From Magnetospirillum sulfuroxidans (GTDB lineage Bacteria; Pseudomonadota; Alphaproteobacteria; Rhodospirillales; Magnetospirillaceae): 54,314 nt of DNA. Where the stretch lies: the NCBI RefSeq assembly GCF_018224925.1, contig NZ_JAGTUF010000023.1, positions 1-54,314 on the forward strand, given 5' to 3'. Made by a program: the position numbers and the translations under genes. This document shows, one piece after another, positions 324 through 21,615 of this stretch. Below the pieces are notes generated by a model. That model saw nothing but the letters and a program-made list of their open reading frames with translations. It was not told the DNA's origin and searched no databases. The first letter of the stretch is position 1. Each line of letters starts with the position of its first letter.

Positions 324-521
324 TCACATGGGCGTGATGCCGTTTTCCTTGTAGACTTCGTCCTGGGCCTTCTTGAACTCGGTCATGGTGAAATCGAAGC
401 CCGAGGCCTTGATTTCGGCCCAACTGGCGGCCTCGTCCTCGGACAGGTCGTTCATCTTCTTCCTGAAATCGTCATCGGAACGCATGCGCTTGATGTAGGC
501 GACGGCTGATTCGACGGACAT
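324..521 (-). CDS. Nif11-like domain small protein
   Basis: A 65-aa acidic helical protein beginning MSVESAVAYIKRM, followed by a D-DFRKKM segment and an E-AASWAEIKASGFDFT segment. That is the pattern of the Nif11 family (PF07862), found near nitrogen-fixation genes and also as leader domain of some peptide natural products. A good ribosome site (AAGGAG) lies seven to eight bases before the ATG. It sits 75 bp downstream of the NifX-glyoxalase fusion gene on the same strand and may share its transcript, though a GC-rich hairpin (550-579) lies between. No glycine-glycine leader cleavage site is seen, so a role as a nitrogenase-associated protein is more likely than a precursor peptide; the molecular function of the family is not known. 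Confidence 0.75.
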   Translation of the reverse strand: MSVESAVAYIKRMRSDDDFRKKMNDLSEDEAASWAEIKASGFDFTMTEFKKAQDEVYKENGITPM

Positions 522-1640: not shown

Positions 1641-4880
<3,240 letters not shown>

Positions 4881-4890
4881 GGGATTGAGC

Positions 4891-4923
4891 GGGGGCGGCC
4901 GCCATGGCTGCCCCCTTTTCTTT
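4891..4923 (+). terminator. leaky terminator after vnfK
   Basis: A 10-bp stem with one G-U pair (4891-4900 with 4906-4915) around a 5-nt loop is followed by TTTTCTTT. It sits between vnfK and the next same-strand gene, which has no promoter of its own that I can see, so it probably lowers rather than blocks expression of the two accessory genes. Confidence 0.65.
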
Positions 4924-4939
4924 GGTCGGAGCCCGAAGC

Positions 4940-5788
4940 ATGAATCTGCTCACCCCCGAATACCGCCAGATCGAGCTTTACAGCAAGAAGAAGATCCTGC
5001 CGGTGGCCGAGGACGCCAAGACCGAACTGGCCGAGGGCCGGGAGGCGGTATCGTGCCTGACCCGCACCTTCCAGCATTTGGACAATATCCTGGGCGAGGC
5101 TGCGGTCGGCGACGACCCCAACGACACCTGGGCCAAATACTTGAAGCTGCCCAAACGTACCCCCATGGAAAAGCTGGCGGCGGAAATTTACCGCAGCTTG
5201 CGCCCGTTCCATGCCGCCGCCACCCACGCCACGGGGCGCATCGCCATCCACAACGGTATGGTCAAGGCGTCGTCCACCATCGGCCACACGGCGCTGTGCA
5301 TCCGCATGACCCGCGCCGGCATGGTGCTGCTGGAATCAACCGTGGCCTATCTGCTGGCCGCCGCCCATTCGCCTTATCCCGAGGCCTACGAAGTCGCCAT
5401 GCTGACCCGCTATTGGGTCGATTGCTACGACGAGATCCGCTGGTATTACGACGAGGACCGGGCGCTGTTCCAGTTCCGCGATCCTTTGCGCATGAACCGC
5501 CATTACCGCTTCGATTGCGACAACCCCAAGCACGATTTGCGTGGCGGCAAGGTTTGGTTCGAGGTGGGGGCCATCTACCGCGACATCGTGCGCTATCCCA
5601 TCGATTTCTATCTGCATATCGACGAGGTCCTTTACATCGTCCCCGTCGAGGCGCTGACCGACTATACCCTGGCCGAAACCGACCTGCCGCGCTGGCGCAC
5701 CCGACTGGCTGACAGCCAGACCCTGCCGGCACGCTGGCGCCCGCGCTTCACCCGTGAGGAAATGGTTCCCGGCCTGCCCATGACCTGA
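4940..5788 (+). CDS. unrecognised vnf-cluster protein (282 aa)
   Basis: I do not recognise this family. The 282-aa product looks soluble and mostly helical at the N-terminus, with no signal peptide. Notable parts are a His/Ala-rich segment (FHAAATHATGRIAIHNG) around residue 95, a helix with LLESTVAYLLAAAHSP, an aromatic acidic stretch (YWVDCYDEIRWYYDEDRALF) around residue 165, and FDCDNPKHDLRGGKVWFEVG. Start at 4940 is supported by CGGAG eight bases upstream. It lies between vnfK and a NifX-family gene in the vnfDGK transcript, so a role in FeV-co delivery or VFe protein maturation is likely by position only. It is not AnfO by length or motif. Confidence 0.8.
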   Translation: MNLLTPEYRQIELYSKKKILPVAEDAKTELAEGREAVSCLTRTFQHLDNILGEAAVGDDPNDTWAKYLKLPKRTPMEKLAAEIYRSLRPFHAAATHATGRIAIHNGMVKASSTIGHTALCIRMTRAGMVLLESTVAYLLAAAHSPYPEAYEVAMLTRYWVDCYDEIRWYYDEDRALFQFRDPLRMNRHYRFDCDNPKHDLRGGKVWFEVGAIYRDIVRYPIDFYLHIDEVLYIVPVEALTDYTLAETDLPRWRTRLADSQTLPARWRPRFTREEMVPGLPMT

Positions 5789-9510: not shown

Positions 9511-10282
9511 TCAGGCTCACCAGCGCCAACAAGACGATGATCAATGCCGACGCCTCGCGGTATTCGAACAGGTGGAAGGCGGTGATGATTTCCAGTCCCA
9601 GGCCGCCGGCGCCGACCACGCCCAAGGTGGTGGCGGCGCGAAGATTGTGTTCCCAGCGATACATGGTGACGTCGACCAGACGCGGCAGGATTTGCGGCAA
9701 CACCGAAAAGCGCAGCACCCCCAGATGGCCGACCCCGTGGCTGCGCAGGGCGTTGCCCGGGCCGGGTTCCACGTGCTCCAAGGTTTCGGCGAAGAATTTC
9801 CCCAGCATGCCGGTGGAATGGGCGGCCAGGGCCAGGATGCCGGCCAGCGGACCAAAGCCGATGGCGGCGACGAACATCACCCCCCAGATCAGTCCGGGGA
9901 TCGACCGCAGCAGGTTCAGCAGCAAACGCATGGGGCCGCCCAGCCACGGGGTGCGCACCACGTTGCGGGCGGCAACTGCGCCGCAGACCAAGGCAAATGC
10001 GGCCCCCAGGGCGGTTCCGGCGACGCTCATGGACAGGGTTTCCAACAGCGGCTTGCCCCATTTCGGCCAGCGGCTGAAATCGGGGGGCATGGAATCATTG
10101 GTCAATTGGGCAATGGTGGACAAGGCCCCGACATAGCGGCCGGCATCGAAAGCCCCGGCATAGACGAAGGCGGCGACGACCGCCACGGCCACCAACCCGC
10201 CGTTCAGCATAGTGTTGCGCGCCTTGCGGCGGCCATCGGCAAGGATGGCCGCCAGGGCGTCGGGGTGACGCGTTTCGATCAT
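9461..10282 (-). CDS. phnE: PhnE-type oxyanion ABC transporter permease (candidate vanadate permease)
   Basis: 273 aa with about six membrane spans. The cytoplasmic EAA-type loop and the YRWEHNLRAATTLGVVGAGGLG motif are typical of PhnE permeases for phosphonate, phosphite and related oxyanions. The start at 10282 overlaps the stop of the binding-protein gene in an ATGA junction. The operon sits between nifQ and vnf-related genes and has no phosphonate-degradation genes beside it, so vanadate is the most plausible substrate; this is inferred from context, and phosphonate or phosphite remains possible. Confidence 0.9.
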   Translation of the reverse strand: MIETRHPDALAAILADGRRKARNTMLNGGLVAVAVVAAFVYAGAFDAGRYVGALSTIAQLTNDSMPPDFSRWPKWGKPLLETLSMSVAGTALGAAFALVCGAVAARNVVRTPWLGGPMRLLLNLLRSIPGLIWGVMFVAAIGFGPLAGILALAAHSTGMLGKFFAETLEHVEPGPGNALRSHGVGHLGVLRFSVLPQILPRLVDVTMYRWEHNLRAATTLGVVGAGGLGLEIITAFHLFEYREASALIIVLLALVSLINLLGARLRARFLGGT

Positions 10283-11160
10283 TTCAGCCCCATGGCCGGG
10301 ACGGTGTCGGGGTTGGCCTTTTCGATGGAATCGATCCAGGTCTTCACCACCTCGACGTCGGAATCGACGCAGGGGATGAAGGATTCGGCGCGGAACACCT
10401 TCAACGCCTCGGGATCGGCGACGTTGATGAAGGCCTTGCGGATTTCTTCCTTGAACGCGGGGTCCAGTCCGTCGCGGAAGGTCCACATATATTCGGGGAT
10501 GGGGCGCGATTCCAGCAGCAGGCGGGTGGCCTTGGGGTCGATCTTGCCTTCCTTCAGCAAGCGCTTGTAGACCGGCATGGACAGGCCGCCGGCGGCGACC
10601 TTGTTGTTGGCGACGGCCAGGGCGACGGTGTCGTGGGCGCCCATGACGCGCAGCGTGTAGTCGCGACCCGAGATCAGACCGGCATCGAGAAGTTCGAAGC
10701 GCGGCACCCAAGTGCCCGACGTGGATGCCGGGTCGCCCAGGGCGATTTCGCCGCCCTTGAGGTCGGCCAGCGACTTGGCCGGGCTGTCGGCGGGGACGAT
10801 GATGGCGGCGGTGAAGGTGGGGCCGACCATTTCGTGGGACGGACGGGCGAAGGGTTGCAGCTTGGCCGACCGCGCCCGCAACAGATAGGTGATCGGACCC
10901 AGATAGGCGATGTCCAGGCGGCCGAAGCGCAAAGCTTCGCCGGTGGCGGCGTAATTGGCGCCGACCATCATTTCCACCGGCATGTTCAGGCGCTTTTCCA
11001 GATAGGCCCGCAAGGGTTCGTTCAGACGCATGACGGTGGGGGCCGATTCGCCGGGCAGCAGGCCGATGACCAATTTCTGCGGACGCTCGGCCAAAGCCGG
11101 CGTCGCCAAGGACAGCAATGTGGCGGCGGTCAGAATGAGTTTACCTAGTTTACCGAACAT
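10279..11160 (-). CDS. phnD: PhnD-type periplasmic oxyanion-binding protein (candidate vanadate binder)
   Basis: 293 aa with an N-terminal signal peptide (hydrophobic LILTAATLLSLATPALA, cut after ALA near residue 24). The mature part has family motifs IGLLPGESAPTVMRLNEPL, RFGRLDIAYLGPITYLL and LGDPASTSGTWVPRFELL (the Ser-Thr-Ser-Gly oxyanion-binding loop). It delivers the ligand to the permease encoded just downstream. Ligand-site details that separate phosphonate from vanadate are not known to me; vanadate is suggested by the vnf neighbourhood. Confidence 0.92.
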   Translation of the reverse strand: MFGKLGKLILTAATLLSLATPALAERPQKLVIGLLPGESAPTVMRLNEPLRAYLEKRLNMPVEMMVGANYAATGEALRFGRLDIAYLGPITYLLRARSAKLQPFARPSHEMVGPTFTAAIIVPADSPAKSLADLKGGEIALGDPASTSGTWVPRFELLDAGLISGRDYTLRVMGAHDTVALAVANNKVAAGGLSMPVYKRLLKEGKIDPKATRLLLESRPIPEYMWTFRDGLDPAFKEEIRKAFINVADPEALKVFRAESFIPCVDSDVEVVKTWIDSIEKANPDTVPAMGLK

Positions 11161-12527: not shown

Positions 12528-13736
12528 TTATTGTTGAATGTTGATGAAGTGGCCAAACTTGCTGAATTCTCGCGGCAGAGCACCGGCCCGGATGGCGGCG
12601 GCCAGTCCGTCGGAATCGGTGACCTGCAATCCGCCCAGCACGGTGGCGCCGTAATCGAACAGGCGCGGCGTCAGCGGCGTCGACGGCCCGGTCAGCGCCA
12701 AGGGCCGTCCCGCGGTCAGCCGCAGGATGCGGGTCAGGTTGCGGTTGATCAGCGCCGATGAATTGACCACCGCCGCCGCGCAGCCGGGCAGCAGCGTCTC
12801 AAGCGCCATCAGCGGATATTCACCGGGGCGGGGGTCGGTTTCGACCACCTGGCAGTGGGGCAGGATGCCGTCGATGCCGGGAAAGGCGCCCACCGCCACC
12901 ACCCGGCCCGACACCTTGCGAAAGGCGCGAATGCCGTTGCCGGTCTTGCCGGTCAGGTCGTAGCGGTTGTAATGGGCGTTGATGGCGGCGATGCCGAGCG
13001 CCATCTCCGCCGGGTCCCAGGATTGCGACAGCGCGGCCAGCGACCTGAGGTCACGATTGAGGTAATGGGCCAGCCGCGCCTTGATCTCGTGCGGGGGCTT
13101 GGGGGCATAGGCCAGACCGCAGCCATGCGGGCCTTCCACCATGATCCAACGGGTGCCGCAGGCGATGCGCACGACCGGATCGGCGGCCACCCCCAGTTCC
13201 AGGTCGCGATACAGCCGTTCCGGTCCCCACCAACGCCACAGGGCGGACAGGTCGGGGGCGATCATGGCGCCGTCCTGGCGGGCGTAGGAATGCCATTTAT
13301 GGATGCAGCCGCCGGCGATCGAGGTCAGCAGCGGCATGCCTTGGCCGTCCACCGCCGAGACCTCGGCGCGCACCGCCTCGGTGGCTTCGGTGCAGGCGGC
13401 GAAGCGGCTGATCACCAGCAGATCGGCCTGTTCGCGCATGGCTTGGCGCATATAGCGGGTGGCGGCGCCGCGCTCGACCTCAAGACGCTGGCCGTCGGCC
13501 AGGTCGAAATATTGGATGCGGTTGGCGCAGCCGTCAGAGGCGCCGCTGCAGCCCCGGTTGTTACCCTGGACATAGCCGACCACCTGGAAACCGCGCCCCT
13601 TCAAGGTCAGGGCGAATTGCGCCAGCAGGCCGTCGATACTGTCATCGGGGTCGTGCACCACCACTCCGGGCCGGATCCACGGGGCCAGCGGCACCGTCTG
13701 CGAGGACTGGCCCAGATGCAAGGGGGCATAGGTCAT
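12528..13736 (-). CDS. DUF2478 / DUF364 two-domain protein, copy 1
   Basis: 402 aa. Residues about 18-175 resemble DUF2478 (RPGVVVHDPDD, DLLVISRFAACTEA, ALWRWWGPERLYRDLELGV); residues about 180-400 resemble the DUF4213/DUF364 putative heavy-metal chelation fold (MALGIAAINAHYNR, GRVVAVGAFPGI, LSTPLTPRLFDYGATVLGG-like). The N-terminal part has extra cysteines (NRGCSGASDGC). A paralogue at 20437-21615 ends the vnfENX operon. Encoded after a 73-aa gene from a sigma-54 promoter next to paired GTAC sites. Handling of a metal or metal-ligand complex is likely from the domain names only; the biochemical role is unknown. Confidence 0.85.
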   Translation of the reverse strand: MTYAPLHLGQSSQTVPLAPWIRPGVVVHDPDDSIDGLLAQFALTLKGRGFQVVGYVQGNNRGCSGASDGCANRIQYFDLADGQRLEVERGAATRYMRQAMREQADLLVISRFAACTEATEAVRAEVSAVDGQGMPLLTSIAGGCIHKWHSYARQDGAMIAPDLSALWRWWGPERLYRDLELGVAADPVVRIACGTRWIMVEGPHGCGLAYAPKPPHEIKARLAHYLNRDLRSLAALSQSWDPAEMALGIAAINAHYNRYDLTGKTGNGIRAFRKVSGRVVAVGAFPGIDGILPHCQVVETDPRPGEYPLMALETLLPGCAAAVVNSSALINRNLTRILRLTAGRPLALTGPSTPLTPRLFDYGATVLGGLQVTDSDGLAAAIRAGALPREFSKFGHFINIQQ

Positions 13737-13971: not shown

Positions 13972-14007
13972 GACGCATTCCTGACGGTGATGGACCCTGC
14001 CTTCAAA

Positions 14008-14023
14008 GCAAGCGGCGGGCCAA
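14008..14023 (-). promoter_or_regulatory. sigma-54 promoter of the 73-aa / DUF2478 unit
   Basis: On the minus strand it reads TTGGCCCGCCGCTTGC, with GG and GC ten bases apart. It is identical over about 20 bp, in inverse orientation, to the promoter at 14152-14167. Predicted start near 13996. Confidence 0.85.
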
Positions 14024-14075: not shown

Positions 14076-14099
14076 GTACGGGGGAAAAGGGCTTCGTAC
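14076..14099. promoter_or_regulatory. paired GTAC sites midway between two divergent sigma-54 promoters
   Basis: GTAC at 14076-14079 and 14096-14099, 20 bp apart as at 1478-1501. The centre lies about 91 bp from both predicted transcript starts. No TGT-N10-ACA NifA site is present in this interval. Confidence 0.6.
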
Positions 14100-14151
14100 C
14101 GCCGTGAACATTTTGCCGGCGCGAAAGGGCAGGCTGCCGCCAAAGCGTCAC

Positions 14152-14205: not shown

Positions 14206-15240
14206 TTGATCCAATCCGTCGCCATTCCGGAATTGCTGTCGCGGCCGCCAGCCCGGCCGCAAACCCATCTGCTGTTCGTCGCCCCCACGGCGCCGCTGGC
14301 TCCGGATTACTCCTGTCGTTCCCATGATGGCGATGGTGGCTATCCCGCTTATTACCACCGGGTGTGGGAAACGTTGCGCGGCCTGGGCTATGGGGTGGAA
14401 ACCGCCGGCCATTGCCAATCGGTGCTGGCGGCGGCGGGGCGGGTGGATCTGGTGTTTTCGCTGATGAACCGTCTGCCCATCCACAATCCCGAAATCGTGG
14501 TGCCAGCGCTGTGCGAGATGGCTGGCATTCCCCATGTGGGGGCGCGTCCCAACATCCGCGCCCTGGCCGAGGATAAATGGCTGAGCAAGCATGCGGCGCG
14601 CTCGGCTGGATTGCCGGTGGCCGAGGGCGCGGTTTACGCGGATGCCCAATCCTTGATGGTGCCGCCCGGCTTCGCCGGCCCCTATTTCGTCAAGAACCGC
14701 TTCGGCGCCGCGTCCGAAGGGGTGTCGCCGGATTCCATCCAGGACGATTGGGCCGGCGCCGCTCGGGTGGCCGGCCAATTGCTGGAACGCGGCATGGAGG
14801 TGTTGGTGGAGGCCTATGCGCCGGGGATCGACATCACCGTGCCGGTGCTGGGCGGCGCCCAGCCGTTGTTCCTGGGGGTGGTGCGCCCCGGTTCCGACCG
14901 CATCGGCGGCATCATCACCGAGGACCTGAAACGCGACGACCCGTTGGGCTATCAGCTCTTCGACGCGGGTTCGCTGGTGCCGCAACTGCGCGACGACGTC
15001 CGGGCATTGTGGGGGCTGGCCGGGCCGATGGATTATTTTCGCCTGGATTACCGTTTCGACCCGCAGAGCGGCCGCCGCGTGTTCCTGGAATTCAACATCT
15101 GCTGCCATATCGGCCGTTCAGGGGCCATCTGTCTGGCCGCCGGCCAATGGGGGCTCAGCCAGGCCGACGTGCTGGGCCATGTGGTGGAATTCAGCCTGCG
15201 CCGTCAGGCCAGCCAGCGGAGCCGCCCATGGGTGTTCTAG
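14206..15240 (+). CDS. D-Ala-D-Ala ligase-like ATP-grasp enzyme (vnf-linked operon, gene 1)
   Basis: 344 aa from a TTG preceded by CGGAG; an ATG at 14104 is in frame but lies upstream of the predicted transcript start. The fold follows Ddl: N-terminal VDLVFSLMN, AGIPHVGA, DKWLSKHAARSAGLP, then the ATP-grasp part with YFVKNRFGAASEGV (Lys about 163), DYFRLDYRF and the metal-binding EFN (Glu about 295, Asn about 297). The usual Ddl substrate loop is replaced by ICCHIGRSG, so a different amine or acid substrate is likely. It would join two small molecules with ATP. First gene of a five-gene operon with overlapping ends, expressed from a sigma-54 promoter with the GTAC arrangement of vnf promoters. 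Confidence 0.87.
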   Translation: MIQSVAIPELLSRPPARPQTHLLFVAPTAPLAPDYSCRSHDGDGGYPAYYHRVWETLRGLGYGVETAGHCQSVLAAAGRVDLVFSLMNRLPIHNPEIVVPALCEMAGIPHVGARPNIRALAEDKWLSKHAARSAGLPVAEGAVYADAQSLMVPPGFAGPYFVKNRFGAASEGVSPDSIQDDWAGAARVAGQLLERGMEVLVEAYAPGIDITVPVLGGAQPLFLGVVRPGSDRIGGIITEDLKRDDPLGYQLFDAGSLVPQLRDDVRALWGLAGPMDYFRLDYRFDPQSGRRVFLEFNICCHIGRSGAICLAAGQWGLSQADVLGHVVEFSLRRQASQRSRPWVF

Positions 15241-16307
15241 AAATCCCCTCGATCCTGCCTCTGGATATCAGTCGCCCGCCCCAGGTGTTCGGTGATCCCG
15301 ATTCCCCAAGGGCCAGGGCCACCGGCTGGGATGTGCTGGGATCGGTGCCGGTGCCGTTGCGCCACATGGTGCGCGATGGCGTCGCCTCGTTGGTGGCCGA
15401 TCTGCGTCACCATGGCGGTCCGGCGCTGAAATGCTGTTTTCCCATGGGGCAGGGCGGAACCACTCCGTTCCAGCGTCTGCGTCACATCCGCCAGTTGGAC
15501 GCCTATCCCGACATGCTGGTCTCGGCGGAAGGCGCCAACCTGTTCAACCGGGCCTTTCACCGCCGGTTCGTGGAAGGCGGCGAATTTTGCGCCGCCCAAC
15601 CGTCAGGGGTGGACGAGGTGTTCACCCGGGCCGGGCTGGTGGACCCCAAGGGCTGGATCGGGGTCTTCGCCGTCGCCCCCTTCGTTTTGTTGGTCGATCG
15701 CGAACGCCTGGGCGAACGCCCCATTCCCCGCCGCTGGGCCGATCTGGCCGATCCGGTCTATGCCGGCCAAGTGGTGTTCGGCGGTTGGCGAGCACCGGGG
15801 GAAAGGCGTTATGGCGCCGTCAACACCTTCTTCCTGCACTGCATGGCTCACGAATTGGGGCTGGGGGGGCTGGCCCGTATCCTGGCCAACGTCCCCTGCC
15901 TGCTGCATTCCGCCCAGATGCCTCGTCTGGCCGGAACCGATGCCGCGCCGGGCGGTATCATGGTCGCGCCCTTGTCCCTGGCCGACATGTGCCCCCGGCG
16001 GCATCGGACCCAGATCGTCTGGCCCGAGGATGGCGCATTGGCCTATCCGCTGTGGCTGACCGTCAAGCGGTCGCGGCGGCAGGACCTGACGCCGTTGGTC
16101 GAGCATTTCCATGGCCCCGAACTGGCGGCCTTGTTGAATTCCAACCGTTACCCGGCCCTGTGTCCGGGGCAACGCCCGCCCATGCCGGCCTGGGCCAAGC
16201 TGAAATGGCCGGGCTGGGATTTCGTCCGCGATCCCGAAAGCGCCGCCCAGGCCAAGGCGGTGCGCAAGCTGTTCCTTTATTGGCAGGAGTATTGGGCATG
16301 CGGGTGA
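15228..16307 (+). CDS. ABC-type solute-binding-protein-like, no signal peptide (operon gene 2)
   Basis: 359 aa. The middle and C-terminal parts resemble iron(III)/thiamine-type extracellular solute-binding proteins (WADLADPVYAGQVVFGGWRAPG, NTFFLHCMAHELG, WPEDGALAYPLWLTVKR). The N-terminus is not a signal peptide, so the protein is probably cytoplasmic, odd for this fold. The ATG follows CGGAG and overlaps the ATP-grasp gene by 13 bp. No permease gene lies nearby. It may act as an intracellular carrier of a metal or small ligand for the other operon products. Confidence 0.83.
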   Translation: MGVLEIPSILPLDISRPPQVFGDPDSPRARATGWDVLGSVPVPLRHMVRDGVASLVADLRHHGGPALKCCFPMGQGGTTPFQRLRHIRQLDAYPDMLVSAEGANLFNRAFHRRFVEGGEFCAAQPSGVDEVFTRAGLVDPKGWIGVFAVAPFVLLVDRERLGERPIPRRWADLADPVYAGQVVFGGWRAPGERRYGAVNTFFLHCMAHELGLGGLARILANVPCLLHSAQMPRLAGTDAAPGGIMVAPLSLADMCPRRHRTQIVWPEDGALAYPLWLTVKRSRRQDLTPLVEHFHGPELAALLNSNRYPALCPGQRPPMPAWAKLKWPGWDFVRDPESAAQAKAVRKLFLYWQEYWACG

Positions 16308-16996
16308 TCACGGTGGCCGGACCGCCCTCGGTGGGCAAGACCTCGGTGGTGGACAAGACCGCCCGCCTGCTGAAGACGCGCGGCCAGCGCGTCGGCGTGG
16401 TCAAGTTCGATTCGCTCGCCACCAGCGATGACGAAATCTATGCCCGCGCCGGTCTGCCGGTGGCGGTGGGGCTGGCGGGCAGCGTCTGTCCCGACCATTT
16501 CTTCGTCAGCAACATCGACGATTGCCTGACCTGGGGACGGGGGCAAGCCCTGGACATGCTGGTGGCGGAAAGCGCCGGGCTGTGCAATCGCTGTTCACCT
16601 CATATCCAAGGGGTGCTGGCCATCTGCGTGGTCGATACCCTGTCGGGCGTGCATACCCCGCGCAAGATCGGCCCCATGCTGAAACTGGCCGACGTGGTGG
16701 TGGTGACCAAGGGCGACATCGTCAGCCAGGCCGAGCGCGAGGTCTTCGCCTTCAATGTGCGGTTGGCCAACCCACGGGCCGCCATCGTCTTCTTCAACGG
16801 CATCACCGGCCAAGGCGCCACCGAATTGGTCCATCACATGGAAAACGCCCCCTCGGTCGATGGGCTGGAGGGGCGCCGCTTGCGCTTTCCCATGCCGTCG
16901 GCGGTCTGTCCTTATTGCGTGGGCGAGACCTGCATCGGCCGCGACCACCAGCGCGGCAACGTCCGCAAGATGAACTTCGCGGGAACGGGGACATGA
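16298..16996 (+). CDS. HypB/UreG-like metal-chaperone GTPase (operon gene 3)
   Basis: 232 aa. P-loop GPPSVGKTS at residues 8-16, then a SIMIBI GTPase core with VVVVTKGD in place of the usual NKxD base-recognition motif. Possible metal sites are AGLCNRCSPHIQG (C-x2-C-x-x-H) in the middle and a C-terminal CPYCVGETCIGRDH cluster (C-x2-C-x4-C). UreG and HypB use such parts to load nickel; here the metal could differ. Overlaps the preceding and following genes by ten and four bases. Distinct from the true HypB at 34007-34927. Confidence 0.87.
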   Translation: MRVITVAGPPSVGKTSVVDKTARLLKTRGQRVGVVKFDSLATSDDEIYARAGLPVAVGLAGSVCPDHFFVSNIDDCLTWGRGQALDMLVAESAGLCNRCSPHIQGVLAICVVDTLSGVHTPRKIGPMLKLADVVVVTKGDIVSQAEREVFAFNVRLANPRAAIVFFNGITGQGATELVHHMENAPSVDGLEGRRLRFPMPSAVCPYCVGETCIGRDHQRGNVRKMNFAGTGT

Positions 16997-18018
16997 GCCG
17001 GTCCATCCTGACCCGCACCATCGGCGAGTTGTCCGCCAGCCATCCGGCCATGGCCGATTTCTTCATCGGCGTGTCGGGCCAAACGCCCAAACCCGATGGC
17101 AGCGTGCTGTCCTGGCTGGCCGGGGTGGGCGAAGACCGGCTGAGCCAATGGGGCATGGATCGCGATCAGGCCTTGGCCCATATCGAGGCCTTGGCCGGAC
17201 AAATCGACGCCTTGCGTTCGAGTTCGGCCCCAGAGGTGCGGGTCCTGACCATCCTGGGCGGCATCAACAAGCAAGGCCAGCCAGAGGATTTGCGCCTGAC
17301 CTTACGTCCGGGTGAGTTGGTGTCGGTGGTCGGCCCCACCGGATCGGGCAAAAGCCGCCTGCTCGGCGACATCGAATGTCTGGCCCAGGGCGACACCCCA
17401 TCGGGGCGGCGCATCCTGGTCAACGACGCGCCGCCGCCGCCGGGCCTGCGCTTTTCCACCCACCAGAAGCTGGTGGCGCAATTGTCGCAGACCATGAATT
17501 TCGTCATGGATCTCAGCGTCGGCGATTTCATCGCCATGCACGCCGAATGTCGTCTGGCCGGCGAGGTCGGCCCCCTGGTGTCGCAGGTGATCGCGCAGGC
17601 CAACGATCTGGCCGGCGAGCCCTTCGACCGCGACGCGGCGCTGACCCAATTGTCGGGCGGCCAGACCCGCGCCCTGATGATCGCCGATACGGCGCTGTTG
17701 TCGGCCTCGCCCATCGTGCTGATCGACGAGATCGAGAATGCCGGCATCGACCGCAAGAAATCGCTGGAATTGCTGCTGGCCCGCGAAAAGATCGTCCTGA
17801 TGTCCACCCACGATCCCATCCTGGCGCTGTTGGGCGACCGCCGTCTGGTCATCCGCGGCGGCGCCGTGGTCGATATCATCGAAACCAGCCTCGCTGAGCG
17901 GGCCAACCTCGCTGCCCTGGAACAACTGGATCAGACGCTGATGGCGGTGCGGCACCGGTTGCGCGGCGGCCAGCGCATCGATTCCCCTGTTGAAGAGATG
18001 CTGCCATGGATGCGCTGA
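16993..18018 (+). CDS. ABC-family ATPase with extra N-terminal domain (operon gene 4)
   Basis: 341 aa. Residues 1-75 form a small helical domain (TIGELSASHPAMADFFIGVSG, weakly like DUF1858 but without its Cys). Then an ABC ATPase: Walker A GPTGSGKSR, signature LSGGQTRALMIADTALL, Walker B PIVLIDEIENAGID and switch His in STHDP. No membrane subunit is encoded near, so it may be a soluble ABC ATPase or work with a permease elsewhere. ATGA overlap with the GTPase gene. Confidence 0.88.
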   Translation: MSRSILTRTIGELSASHPAMADFFIGVSGQTPKPDGSVLSWLAGVGEDRLSQWGMDRDQALAHIEALAGQIDALRSSSAPEVRVLTILGGINKQGQPEDLRLTLRPGELVSVVGPTGSGKSRLLGDIECLAQGDTPSGRRILVNDAPPPPGLRFSTHQKLVAQLSQTMNFVMDLSVGDFIAMHAECRLAGEVGPLVSQVIAQANDLAGEPFDRDAALTQLSGGQTRALMIADTALLSASPIVLIDEIENAGIDRKKSLELLLAREKIVLMSTHDPILALLGDRRLVIRGGAVVDIIETSLAERANLAALEQLDQTLMAVRHRLRGGQRIDSPVEEMLPWMR

Positions 18019-18557
18019 AACTCCTGCTGGAACGCCGGTCCTGCCATGCGCTGCAAGCCCCAGGGCCGCAAGGCGCCGAACTGGACGTCATCCTGCGGGC
18101 CGGGCTCAGGGTGCCCGATTTCCAAAGCCTGCGTCCCTATGAGTTCCTGGTCGCCGTCGGGCCGGGGCTGGACCGTCTGGGAGATTTGTTCGCCCAGGCC
18201 GCCCGTGTCGCTGGGAAGTCGGACGAATTGGTGGGCCGCGCCGCCCGCATGCCACACCGCGCCCCCGTGGTGATCACCGTGGTCGCCCGCCATAAGCCCA
18301 GCACTATCGTGCGGCCGCTGGAACAGCGGCTCAGCGCCGGCTGCGCCGTCATGGCCATGCAGATGGCCGCCCTGGCCCAAGGGTTCGCCGGGGTGTGGCG
18401 CTCGGGCTGGCTGATGTTCGACCGCACTTTGCATAATTTGCTGGATCTTGGCCCCGATGACCAGATCGTTGGCTTCCTCTATCTCGGCACCCAGGCCAAG
18501 CCGCATGAAATTTCGCTTTCCGCCGACGAAATCGGCGAGGTGACGCGATGGCTGTGA
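18006..18557 (+). CDS. nitroreductase-family flavoprotein (operon gene 5)
   Basis: 183 aa. The N-terminus (LLLERRSCHALQAPGP) and the region VPDFQSLRPYEFLVA, the MAMQMAALAQGFAGVWRSG helix and FLYLGT match small FMN-dependent nitroreductases of the YdjA type. It overlaps the ATPase gene by 13 bp and ends the operon. A redox step on the product of the ATP-grasp enzyme, or reduction of a bound metal, are both possible; there is no direct evidence for either. Confidence 0.88.
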   Translation: MDALKLLLERRSCHALQAPGPQGAELDVILRAGLRVPDFQSLRPYEFLVAVGPGLDRLGDLFAQAARVAGKSDELVGRAARMPHRAPVVITVVARHKPSTIVRPLEQRLSAGCAVMAMQMAALAQGFAGVWRSGWLMFDRTLHNLLDLGPDDQIVGFLYLGTQAKPHEISLSADEIGEVTRWL

Positions 18558-18585: not shown

Positions 18586-18612
18586 GCGTTATAGTGCGAT
18601 CCGTTATAACGC
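18586..18612. promoter_or_regulatory. ModE-type Mo box upstream of mosBA
   Basis: A perfect 8-bp inverted repeat, GCGTTATA (18586-18593) and TATAACGC (18605-18612), with an 11-bp spacer. Size and CGTTATA/TATAACG ends fit ModE operators. It lies upstream of two TTGACA hexamers (18638, 18645) that could be the -35 of mosB. Confidence 0.7.
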
Positions 18613-18738
18613 ATTGAAATGTAACGGTTTTCTGTTTTTGACAATTGACAATCAGGTTCCGTGCGACCAATTTATGGGCATGCGGCGGGGGCTGCCTATT
18701 CATTCGCCTCCGCGCGAATTGGAAAGGTAGATCCCCCC

Positions 18739-19551
18739 ATGATCCAATCGACGGCAGAGCTTGAAGCTCTTCTGATGCAGCGTTCCCTTAGTGATCCGCA
18801 ATTGCTGGCGGCGGCGGAAGCGGCGGCTGATTTCCGCATCCTGCCGGATGCCACGGTATTGAAGATCGGCGGCCAAAGCGTCATCGATCGCGGTCGTTCG
18901 GCCGTCTATCCGCTGGTGGACGAGATCGCCGCCGCCCGCAAGACCCACAAGATGCTGATCGGCACCGGGGCCGGCACCCGTGCCCGCCACCTTTATTCCA
19001 TCGCCGCCGGGCTGAACCTGCCGGCCGGCGTGCTGTCGCAACTGGGCGCCTCGGTGGCCGATCAGAACGCGGTGATGCTGGGTCAGTTGCTGGCCAAGCA
19101 CGGTATTCCGGTGGTCGGTGGCGCGGGTTTGTCGGCGGTGCCGCTGTCGCTGGCGGAAGTCAACGCGGTGATCTTCAGCGGCATGCCGCCCTACAAGCTG
19201 TGGATGCGCCCGGCCGCGGAAGGTGTCATTCCGCCCTATCGCACCGATGCCGGCTGTTTCCTGATGGCCGAGTCCTTTGGCTGCAAGCAGATGATCTATG
19301 TGAAGGACGAGAACGGCCTTTACACCGCCAATCCCAAAACCGCCAAGAACCCCACTTTCATCGCCAAGATTTCGGTGGACGAGATGAAAGCCAAGGGCCT
19401 GCACGATTCCATCTTGGAATTCCCGGTCCTCGATCTGCTGAAGGCGGCGCGTCACGTGCGCCAGGTGCAGGTGATCAACGGTTTGGTTCCCGGCAACCTG
19501 ACCCGCGCCCTGGCCGGCGAGCATGTCGGCACCATCATCACCGCCAGCTGA
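18739..19551 (+). CDS. mosB: molybdenum storage protein, beta subunit
   Basis: 270 aa, the same length as Azotobacter MosB. It has the amino-acid-kinase fold with [38 protein letters not shown] and [22 protein letters not shown]. Start at 18739 matches the family N-terminus (stAELEALL). With MosA it forms a cage that stores about 100 Mo or W atoms as polyoxometalate, driven by ATP. Such stores keep scarce Mo for Mo-nitrogenase; tungstate or vanadate uptake into the cage is conceivable here. Confidence 0.95.
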
Positions 19552-19561
19552 GGATCAAGAC

Positions 19562-20392
19562 ATGTCGCAAACCAATAGCATCAAGCACATCGCTTCGCCG
19601 CTGGCCAGTCAGACCCTTTTGGACGGCGACCTGGTCCGCCCGGTGGCCGGTGTCCGTCCCATCCGTCTGCTGCCCTGGCTGCAAGTGGTGAAGATCGGCG
19701 GCCGCTCCATCATGGATCGCGGCGCCGAGGCCATTTTGCCGGTGGTCGCCGAATTGCGCAAAATCCTGCCCGAACATCGTTTGCTGATCCTGACCGGGGC
19801 CGGCATCCGCGCCCGTCATCTGTATGGCGTCGGCCTGGATCTGGGCCTGCCGGTCGGCTCCCTGGCGCCGTTGGCGGCCAGCGAGGCCGGGCAGAACGGT
19901 CATATCCTGGCTTCGTTGCTGGCCCCGGAAGGTGTCTCCTATGTGGAACACCCGACCATCGCCAATCAGCTGGCCATCCACCTGTCGGCGGCGCGTGCCG
20001 TGGTGGGCAGCGCCTTCCCGCCCTATCACCACCACGAATTCCCCCATTCGCGCCTGCCCACGCACCGGGCCGACACCGGCGCCTTCCTGTTGGCCGACGC
20101 CCTGGGAGCGGCGGGGCTGACCATCGTCGAGGACGTGGACGGCATCTATGACCGTGACCCCAACGGTGCCGACGGCGCCGGGGCCACGCTGCTGAACGAG
20201 GTGGATTGCGCCGATCTGGCCCAGGCCGAAGGCCCGTTGCCGGTGGACCGCGCCATGGTCGAGGTGATGGCGAACGCCCGCAATCTGGAACGGGTGCAGG
20301 TGGTCAACGGTTTGGTCCCCGGGCGCTTGACCGCCGCCTTGCGCGGCGAGCATGTGGGCACCATCATCCGCTCTGGCGCCAAGCCGCTCTGA
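19562..20392 (+). CDS. mosA: molybdenum storage protein, alpha subunit
   Basis: 276 aa, equal in length to Azotobacter MosA. Recognisable runs are [42 protein letters not shown] (His-rich segment near the metal clusters) and [19 protein letters not shown]. Start at 19562, after GAGGATC, ten bases past mosB. The pair is closely related by sequence and probably arose by duplication. A hairpin terminator follows. Confidence 0.96.
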
Positions 20393-20436: not shown

Positions 20437-21615
20437 TCACGCCCGGAACTTGCAGCGTGGCGCGGTTTCGCGTTCGTGGCGGATGTGCATGTAATTACCG
20501 AAGCGGGTGAACTCGCGCGGCATGGCCCCGGCACGGACGGCCTCGCCCAGGCCCTTGGCGTCGCGCACCACCAAGCCGCCCAGCACTTCCGCCCCGTAAT
20601 GGTAAAGACGCGGCGTCAGCGGCGTCGCCGGCCCGACCAGGGCGATTCTTGATCCGTGGGCCAGGCGCAGGATGCGCGGCAGCGAGCGGTTGATCAGGGT
20701 CGAGGACGCCACCACCGTCGCCGCGCAGCCGGGCAAAAGCGTGTCCATGGCCACGGTGGGATATTCGCCGGGGCGGGGCTCGGTCTCGATCACTTGCGGG
20801 TTGCGCAAAACCTCGGACAGGCCGGGAAAGGCTCCGACCACCACCACTCGGCCGGCTTGGCCGCCGAAGGTGTCGGCGCCGTTGCCCATTTCGGCGGCCA
20901 GATCGAAGCGGTTGTAATGGGCGTTGATGGCGGCGATTCCCAGCGCCATTTCCAACGGGTCCCACGCTGCCGACAGATCGGCCAATTGCCGCAGGCTCTG
21001 CTTGCGCAATTGCGGCAGGCGCCCCAGCAAATCCTTGGCCGAGCGCGGCAGATAGGCCAGGCCGGCCCCCGCCGGGCCCTGCACCATCAGCCAACGCGGG
21101 CCGACGACGATTTGCCGCACCTCGTCGCTTGCCACCCCCAGGGCCAAGTCACGGTACAGCCGTTCCGGTCCCCACCATTGCCACAGCGCCTTGGTCTTGG
21201 GCGCCACCATGGAACCACCCTGGCCGGCGAAATCCAGCCAATGCTGCACCTGGGTGCCGGGGATGGCCGACAGCACCGGCAGCGCCAGCCCCTGGCCGGG
21301 TTCGATGGTGGCCAGCATTTCGCGGGCGGCGGCGGTGCAGGCGGCGAAATCGTCGATCACCACCAGATCGGAATCGTCGCGCATGGCGGCGCGGAACGCC
21401 TTGGCGGCGTGGGCGGCCATGTCCGAACTCACCGGGCATTCGCTGGCCAAATCAATCACCTGTCCGTCGCGCCGCACGCAGCCGGCCACCGCGAACCCCC
21501 GTTTCTTCAGGGTCAGGGCGAATTTCGCCAGCAAGCCGCCGACCAGGGCGTCGGCTTCGTGGATGACCACGCCGGGGCGGATGAAAGGGGCTTGGGTGGG
21601 TTGGAACTGGAACAT
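20437..21615 (-). CDS. DUF2478 / DUF364 two-domain protein, copy 2
   Basis: 392 aa, clearly paralogous to the protein at 12528-13736: shared RPGVVIHEADAL, ALWQWWGPERLYRDLALGVA, DPLEMALGIAAINAHYNRFD, GEYPTVAMDTLLPGCAATVV and PREFTRFGNYMHI. It lacks the N-terminal Cys pair of copy 1 and has a basic C-terminal tail. Last gene of the vnfENX operon, four bases after the NifU-like gene. Two copies in two separate vnf-type operons suggest a dedicated, perhaps two-substrate or heteromeric, role. Confidence 0.86.
   Translation of the reverse strand: MFQFQPTQAPFIRPGVVIHEADALVGGLLAKFALTLKKRGFAVAGCVRRDGQVIDLASECPVSSDMAAHAAKAFRAAMRDDSDLVVIDDFAACTAAAREMLATIEPGQGLALPVLSAIPGTQVQHWLDFAGQGGSMVAPKTKALWQWWGPERLYRDLALGVASDEVRQIVVGPRWLMVQGPAGAGLAYLPRSAKDLLGRLPQLRKQSLRQLADLSAAWDPLEMALGIAAINAHYNRFDLAAEMGNGADTFGGQAGRVVVVGAFPGLSEVLRNPQVIETEPRPGEYPTVAMDTLLPGCAATVVASSTLINRSLPRILRLAHGSRIALVGPATPLTPRLYHYGAEVLGGLVVRDAKGLGEAVRAGAMPREFTRFGNYMHIRHERETAPRCKFRA

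Follow-up and report, generated by a model that had tools for sequence, protein, structure and literature searches.

The closest described system to the locus considered here is the VnfA1-dependent operon Avin_02430-02390 of Azotobacter vinelandii, which encodes a substrate-binding protein, a 'nickel binding GTPase', an ATP-binding cassette (ABC) ATPase, a nitroreductase and a glutamate-cysteine ligase, in an organism for which a VnfA1-bound region with divergent sigma-54 promoters has been described (PMC9542535). In the accessible sections of that 2022 paper the operon except its last gene is said, with reference to Addo and Dos Santos 2020, to be conserved in those Proteobacteria that have vanadium nitrogenase, and neither an assigned function nor a mutant is given; it was the only paper mentioning the five locus tags in the literature searched. 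In this study, we explored by computational analysis the five-gene operon at 14206-18557 of a 54,314-nucleotide stretch of DNA from Magnetospirillum sulfuroxidans (the whole stretch is called the window hereafter). Both operons share a solute-binding protein, a GTPase, an ABC ATPase and a nitroreductase in the same order, a divergent sigma-54/VnfA promoter region and the company of vnf genes: in the window these genes, B-C-D-E, stand behind sigma-54-like and VnfA sites in a genome with vnfDGK. The A. vinelandii operon ends with a glutamate-cysteine ligase, whereas the window shows no GCS2-type ligase as last gene and instead has a Ddl-like ATP-grasp gene in front, and its divergent gene codes for a DUF364 protein, unlike in A. 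vinelandii. The initial annotation had presented the set as a new part of the vanadium nitrogenase system; its novelty is not supported, four of its five genes having been published in 2022 in a VnfA1-dependent, vnf-conserved operon (PMC9542535).

Our preferred reading, to which we give about an even chance, sees the operon as a module of the vanadium (V) nitrogenase regulon that handles vanadium in the cytosol. Including a ligase for making a ligand and a flavin reductase, the module would serve assembly of the iron-vanadium cofactor (FeV-cofactor). This reading builds on gene content, regulatory sites, vnf company, an exchange of the ligase, conserved motifs and the lack of a detectable leader and of a permease, all of them direct observations. 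The genes are the following.

14206-15240, plus strand: gene A, Ddl-like ATP-grasp ligase; TTG start, no Pfam match, NCBIfam Ddl models below their cut-offs
15228-16307, plus strand: gene B, solute-binding protein without leader; Pfam SBP_bac_6, 7.4e-62
16298-16996, plus strand: gene C, HypB/UreG-like GTPase with CPDH, CNRC and CPYC motifs; Pfam cobW, 4.1e-10
16993-18018, plus strand: gene D, ABC ATPase without permease; Pfam ABC_tran, 3.7e-13
18006-18557, plus strand: gene E, nitroreductase; Pfam Nitroreductase, 3.3e-18, and NF008088 at 186.4 bits (cut-off 183)

The coordinates of these open reading frames (ORFs) confirm the initial description of five genes overlapping by 4-13 bases, with consecutive overlaps of 13, 10, 4 and 13 bases, and equally that of an operon without permease, for which the five packed genes leave no space. 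The gene first described as a carrier is present as gene B, with the fold of a solute-binding protein (SBP_bac_6) and not that of an acyl carrier.

Relatives were collected by a scan with gene C, from which the nearest 80 loci were taken, all with at least 58% identity and the best 80 of 533 stretches that matched at a lax limit, possibly including other GTPases. Sorted by gene content, 27 loci from alpha-, beta- and gammaproteobacteria together with the window form the V-type, in which B adjoins C in 28 of 28 loci and E is present in 24. For the four remaining loci (L009, L012, L019, L035) the contig stops before the position of E, and in the genome of L035 E adjoins a GCS2 ligase on another stretch (L126). 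The remaining 77 C rows, of which 75 are distinct (L004/L104 and L005/L105 are the same places) and from which L003 of the V-type genome G163 was left out, constitute the core type: B and D lie nearby on the same strand in 61 of them, while E, A or a GCS gene stands beside C in none of the 77. V-type C proteins form one supported clade of 29 rows within a 104-row tree (Shimodaira-Hasegawa-like approximate likelihood ratio test, SH-aLRT, 98, by a quick method). The possibility, raised at the outset, that the set occurs mostly in non-diazotrophs thus does not hold for the set with E and ligase. It does apply to the B-C-D core among Clostridia: there, no nifH over the cut-off was found in 10 of the 14 genomes that carry C.

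The association of the set with vanadium nitrogenase genes, as initially proposed, is upheld by the distribution of vnf genes together with the regulatory sites described below. In the window, vnfD, vnfG and vnfK (1668-4880) exceed the cut-offs of the V-specific NCBIfam models. Among 50 of the 80 genomes, comprising all 27 V-type and 23 other C-bearing ones, vnfG was found over the cut-off in 24 of 27 V-type genomes versus 0 of 23 others, of which 8 gave weaker matches (Anf-like or divergent) and 15 none. The three V-type genomes without vnfG over the cut-off carry vnfD or vnfK in the locus (L011, L020, L012), and evidence of vnf is present in the genomes of all 27 V-type loci; vnfD, G or K falls inside the retrieved DNA of 11/28 V-type loci. 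When 398 genomes were sampled evenly across the phylum, vnfG turned up in only two, that of the window and G163, and the operon is present in both; C was seen in two further genomes, there in a distant C-D pair lacking B and E.

The control region in front of gene A contains the following elements.

14076-14099, no strand assigned: VnfA-type enhancer GTAC-N16-GTAC, part of an element at 14076-14109
14096-14109, minus strand: perfect GTTC-N6-GTAC, the published VnfA1 motif (PMC9542535)
14153-14168, plus strand: sigma-54-like promoter TGGCCCG-N4-TTGCT with 1 mismatch, from a consensus scan
14007-14022, minus strand: mirrored sigma-54-like site facing the DUF2478-DUF4213-DUF364 gene, from a consensus scan

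GTAC-N16-GTAC occurs exactly twice in the window, at 1478-1501 before vnfD and at 14076-14099 before gene A, where 0.05 occurrences are expected by chance and 0 of 100 shuffles reach two. A perfect GTWC-N6-GTAC, the form of the VnfA1 motif given in PMC9542535, is likewise found only at these two enhancer sites, and on its own is weak evidence (0.38 expected, 11 shuffles reaching two). A sigma-54-like site follows each pair, the one before vnfD at 1567-1582 with 2 mismatches, in agreement with the single sigma-54 promoter and the paired-GTAC layout of vnfDGK claimed initially. Since the sigma-54 consensus alone is not above chance across the window (11 found versus 13.25 expected), the weight rests on the position of the sites and on their recurrence in relatives. 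The VnfA motif was observed upstream of the operon in 15/28 V-type loci, a sigma-54-like site in 18/28 and both in 13/28, compared with 0.4 expected by chance in the 28 loci for the VnfA motif and likewise for the sigma-54-like site; upstream of 52 core loci the numbers were 3, 1 and 0. The mirrored site facing the DUF364 gene makes the control region look divergent.

Exchange of the ligase is the second feature that sets the V-type loci apart. Orthologs of A (at least 50% identity) were found in 15/28 V-type genomes and those of a GCS2-type ligase (at least 55%), an enzyme not related to A, in 10/28, with both in none and neither in three; the window's genome has the ATP-grasp gene and no GCS2-type ortholog, and 0/10 core control genomes have an ortholog of either. 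G163, which came from a separate search, carries A. One GCS genome (G416) gave a weak partial ATP-grasp match (34%, 2.5e-14), as did two A-bearing genomes for a second gene, all of which we take as other ATP-grasp enzymes. A tree built from the joined B, C, D and E sequences (32 rows, rooted on three core loci) shows a single change of ligase, with the GCS clade nested inside the ATP-grasp rows and the relevant nodes at 100/99 or better. From this nesting, ATP-grasp A looks ancestral and appears to have been replaced once by the GCS2-type enzyme, at the base of the beta/gammaproteobacterial group. The swap suggests an amide or peptide product and an equal function of both ligases, and thereby lends indirect support to the idea of a small molecule. 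The GCS2-type ligase belongs to the GCS2 family at 37.8 bits (Pfam cut-off 21). Gene A, whose fold is nearest Ddl, scores 32.7 bits against TIGR01205 (245.65 needed); it retains the residues that serve ATP and Mg in Ddl, and the D-Ala acceptor motif is absent, with an invariant Cys pair at that position. A cell-wall Ddl was considered for gene A and rejected, because a separate Ddl over the model cut-off is present in the same genome, in agreement with the initial view that A has no peptidoglycan role.

Gene C is nearest HypB and UreG by sequence and fold, its structural neighbours being Zn- and Ni-bound HypB/UreG, and it stays below the equivalog cut-offs of both hypB (40.9 bits, 121.2 needed) and ureG (33 bits, 204.2 needed). 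Across 38 aligned C proteins C64-P-D-H67, C96-N-R-C99, C110 and C204-x-Y-C207 are invariant, and the first of these falls at the HypB/UreG metal motif. For B, no leader-like hydrophobic stretch was found in any of 82 B-family ORFs (29 V-type and 53 core), by a measure which detects 8 of 12 VodA-like controls and misses 4. One Fusobacterium B has an N-terminal DUF1858. The reading that B and D form a full ABC importer was rejected on the grounds of this lack of a leader-like stretch and of a permease in the operon.

The B-C-D core occurs beyond vanadium, in many anaerobes and often without nifH, and is not vanadium-specific by origin. A nifH survey covered 50 core genomes, taken from the 53 core loci L032-L086 (L058, L060 and L063 left out) and all belonging to the nearest relatives of C: nifH exceeded the cut-off in 38, a NifH match at 1e-30 was absent in 8 and a MoaA match at 1e-30 likewise in 8, with both absent in the metagenome-assembled genome (MAG) G455. 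In an even sample of 245 Clostridia nifH was over the cut-off in 4/14 C-bearing versus 22/231 C-less genomes, one of the four being the centre genome, picked for having C, and 8 of the 14 had no NifH-like match at 1e-60. The core is consequently commoner in N2 fixers and not confined to them. We rejected a core serving only molybdenum or nitrogenase because of the genomes without NifH, without MoaA or, in G455, without both, and because most C-bearing Clostridia are without nifH. Recurrent partners in core loci are FecB, FecCD and ATPase-like transporter genes (names by inspection), a S-adenosylmethionine methyltransferase (Pfam), and mod and nif genes; in 12 Clostridia loci no shared theme among the neighbours was apparent by eye. 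A HypA-like zinc-ribbon gene stands beside B-C-D in 6 core loci, one member scoring 17.9 bits, below the Pfam cut-off of 28.9. In five core loci (L044, L047, L079, L080, L098) a DUF364 gene occurs without B in C-D-DUF364 runs, where its protein may act as a stand-in for the carrier. Some core members adjoin nitrogenase-like genes: at L103:9112-17553, NifH-like, Oxidored_nitro and FecB/FecCD/ATPase-like genes come after C-D-B in a single run, with the NifH-like gene at 346.6 bits, below the nifH cut-off. At L104:8319-10582 and L105:8569-10832 a distant D-C pair precedes a gene with a CGMCGFKSC motif, like an iron-sulfur domain. The core looks like a soluble metallochaperone family, and no published description of it as such was found in the literature searched.

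The steps by which vanadium becomes reduced, transported and built into FeV-cofactor are, to our knowledge, still an open question. We propose a model in which the core of carrier B, GTPase C and ABC ATPase D derives from a wider soluble module of anaerobes resembling nickel metallochaperones, one lineage of which would have become linked to vnf genes and placed under VnfA/sigma-54 control, with two enzymes added. The ligase, ATP-grasp A and later the GCS2-type enzyme of beta- and gammaproteobacteria, would make a small amide- or peptide-type ligand, flavin enzyme E would reduce vanadate or the complex, B would bind the vanadium-ligand complex, and C and D would spend GTP and ATP in passing it on to FeV-cofactor assembly. 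The identity of the metal, the ligand, the reduction step, the transfer and VnfX/VnfEN as the recipient are what we infer here. The more specific version, in which a so-far-unknown low-molecular-weight vanadium ligand is made by amide-bond formation, held on the cytosolic solute-binding protein and handed over by the GTPase/ABC-ATPase pair, is put forward tentatively, as possible rather than probable. If true, it would mean that a cofactor metal is loaded by way of a soluble small molecule. With an operon that is conserved and co-regulated and whose bond-making ligase can be exchanged, the question of vanadium loading becomes concretely testable.

The core might instead mature or repair the metallocofactor of nitrogenase-type enzymes generally, with iron, molybdenum or nickel, so that the V-type copy would serve V-nitrogenase without handling vanadium. 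The nifH counts in core genomes, the core genes beside nif and mod genes and the L103 run speak for this, while the C-bearing Clostridia without a NifH-like match at 1e-60 speak against it, and it leaves the ligase and nitroreductase, both confined here to V-type loci, unexplained; we consider it unlikely. Another reading is a protective operon, whose ligase would make a thiol peptide and whose gene E would reduce vanadate, which would keep vanadium acquired for nitrogenase from doing harm. In its favour are the co-regulation with vnf and the fact that glutathione-like peptides are made by enzymes of the GCS2 and ATP-grasp classes. Such protection gives no role to the GTPase, the carrier and the ABC ATPase, and we regard it as decidedly doubtful. 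A role in making or importing a secreted siderophore that binds vanadium appears very improbable, with B leaderless and no permease, exporter or receptor gene in the operon, even given the ligase and the FecBCD-like transporters (named by inspection) beside many core loci. Hardly credible, finally, is an ordinary ABC importer with an overlooked leader and permease: the solute-binding and ABC ATPase families would suit it, but the leader measure, despite its misses among the controls, returned nothing in any of the 82 B-family ORFs.

Several observations weigh against the vanadium-handling module itself. Three V-type genomes (L009, L019, L021; two MAGs and one draft) have neither ligase, and the ligase swap is a single event that follows taxonomy. 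Metal binding by C would rest on its motifs, and its C-terminal CxYC part is modelled with a predicted local distance difference test (pLDDT) score below 50. Genomes with the core but no V-nitrogenase exist, and they often have no nifH either, so that the core need not have vanadium as its native metal. In A. vinelandii, according to PMC9542535, the promoter of the solute-binding protein gene is bound and active in some non-V (Fe-only) conditions too. No mutant phenotype or product of the operon was found in print, as far as the accessible texts go, and the available portions of PMC4465626, PMC10418091 and PMC13102585 yielded nothing on it; the term 'ATP-grasp' was absent from a set of 18 retrieved papers.

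Further features surround the operon.

12528-13736, minus strand: divergent DUF2478-DUF4213-DUF364 gene (Pfam), probable partner

This gene lies upstream and divergent in 8/28 V-type loci (the window, L007, L009-L013 and L020), and a paralog with the same domains is present at 20437-21615 (minus strand). Downstream of E, a perfect palindrome CGTTATA-N11-TATAACG at 18587-18611 (0 expected by chance), which we take to resemble a ModE-type box, precedes two overlapping amino-acid-kinase-family genes at 18661-20392 (Pfam), presumably similar to molybdenum storage protein (MoSto) subunits. These MoSto-like genes were rejected as operon members because the gap before them has this palindromic site of its own. 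A small ORF at 324-521 (minus strand) presumably resembles a Nif11-type leader peptide, and a nickel-iron hydrogenase-like cluster is visible by eye elsewhere in the window. The gene at 4904-5788, between vnfK and a vnfX-like gene, has no Pfam or NCBIfam match and homologs beside vnf in several V-type loci. At 10279-11160 (minus strand) lies the Phosphonate-bd family binding protein of a transporter set, which by place and family resembles the proposed vanadate transporter VodABC of A. vinelandii (PMC9542535).

Set against known systems, gene A shares with the D-alanine--D-alanine ligases Ddl and VanA the ATP-grasp fold and the retained ATP and Mg residues, at about 20% identity and with the acceptor-side PGMTSHS changed to CCHIGRSG. 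HypA/HypB and UreG are the nickel-loading models for the operon: C matches the nickel-insertion GTPases HypB and UreG in fold, in nucleotide motifs and in having a Cys/His motif at the position of their metal site, whereas it carries CPDH in place of CPH/CH and adds the invariant CNRC and CxYC pairs. For D, SufC is the model of an ABC ATPase working without permease. B differs in family from the window's VodA-like gene, being SBP_bac_6 where the latter is Phosphonate-bd, and VnfZ of A. vinelandii provides a precedent for a leaderless solute-binding protein in vanadium regulation (PMC9542535).

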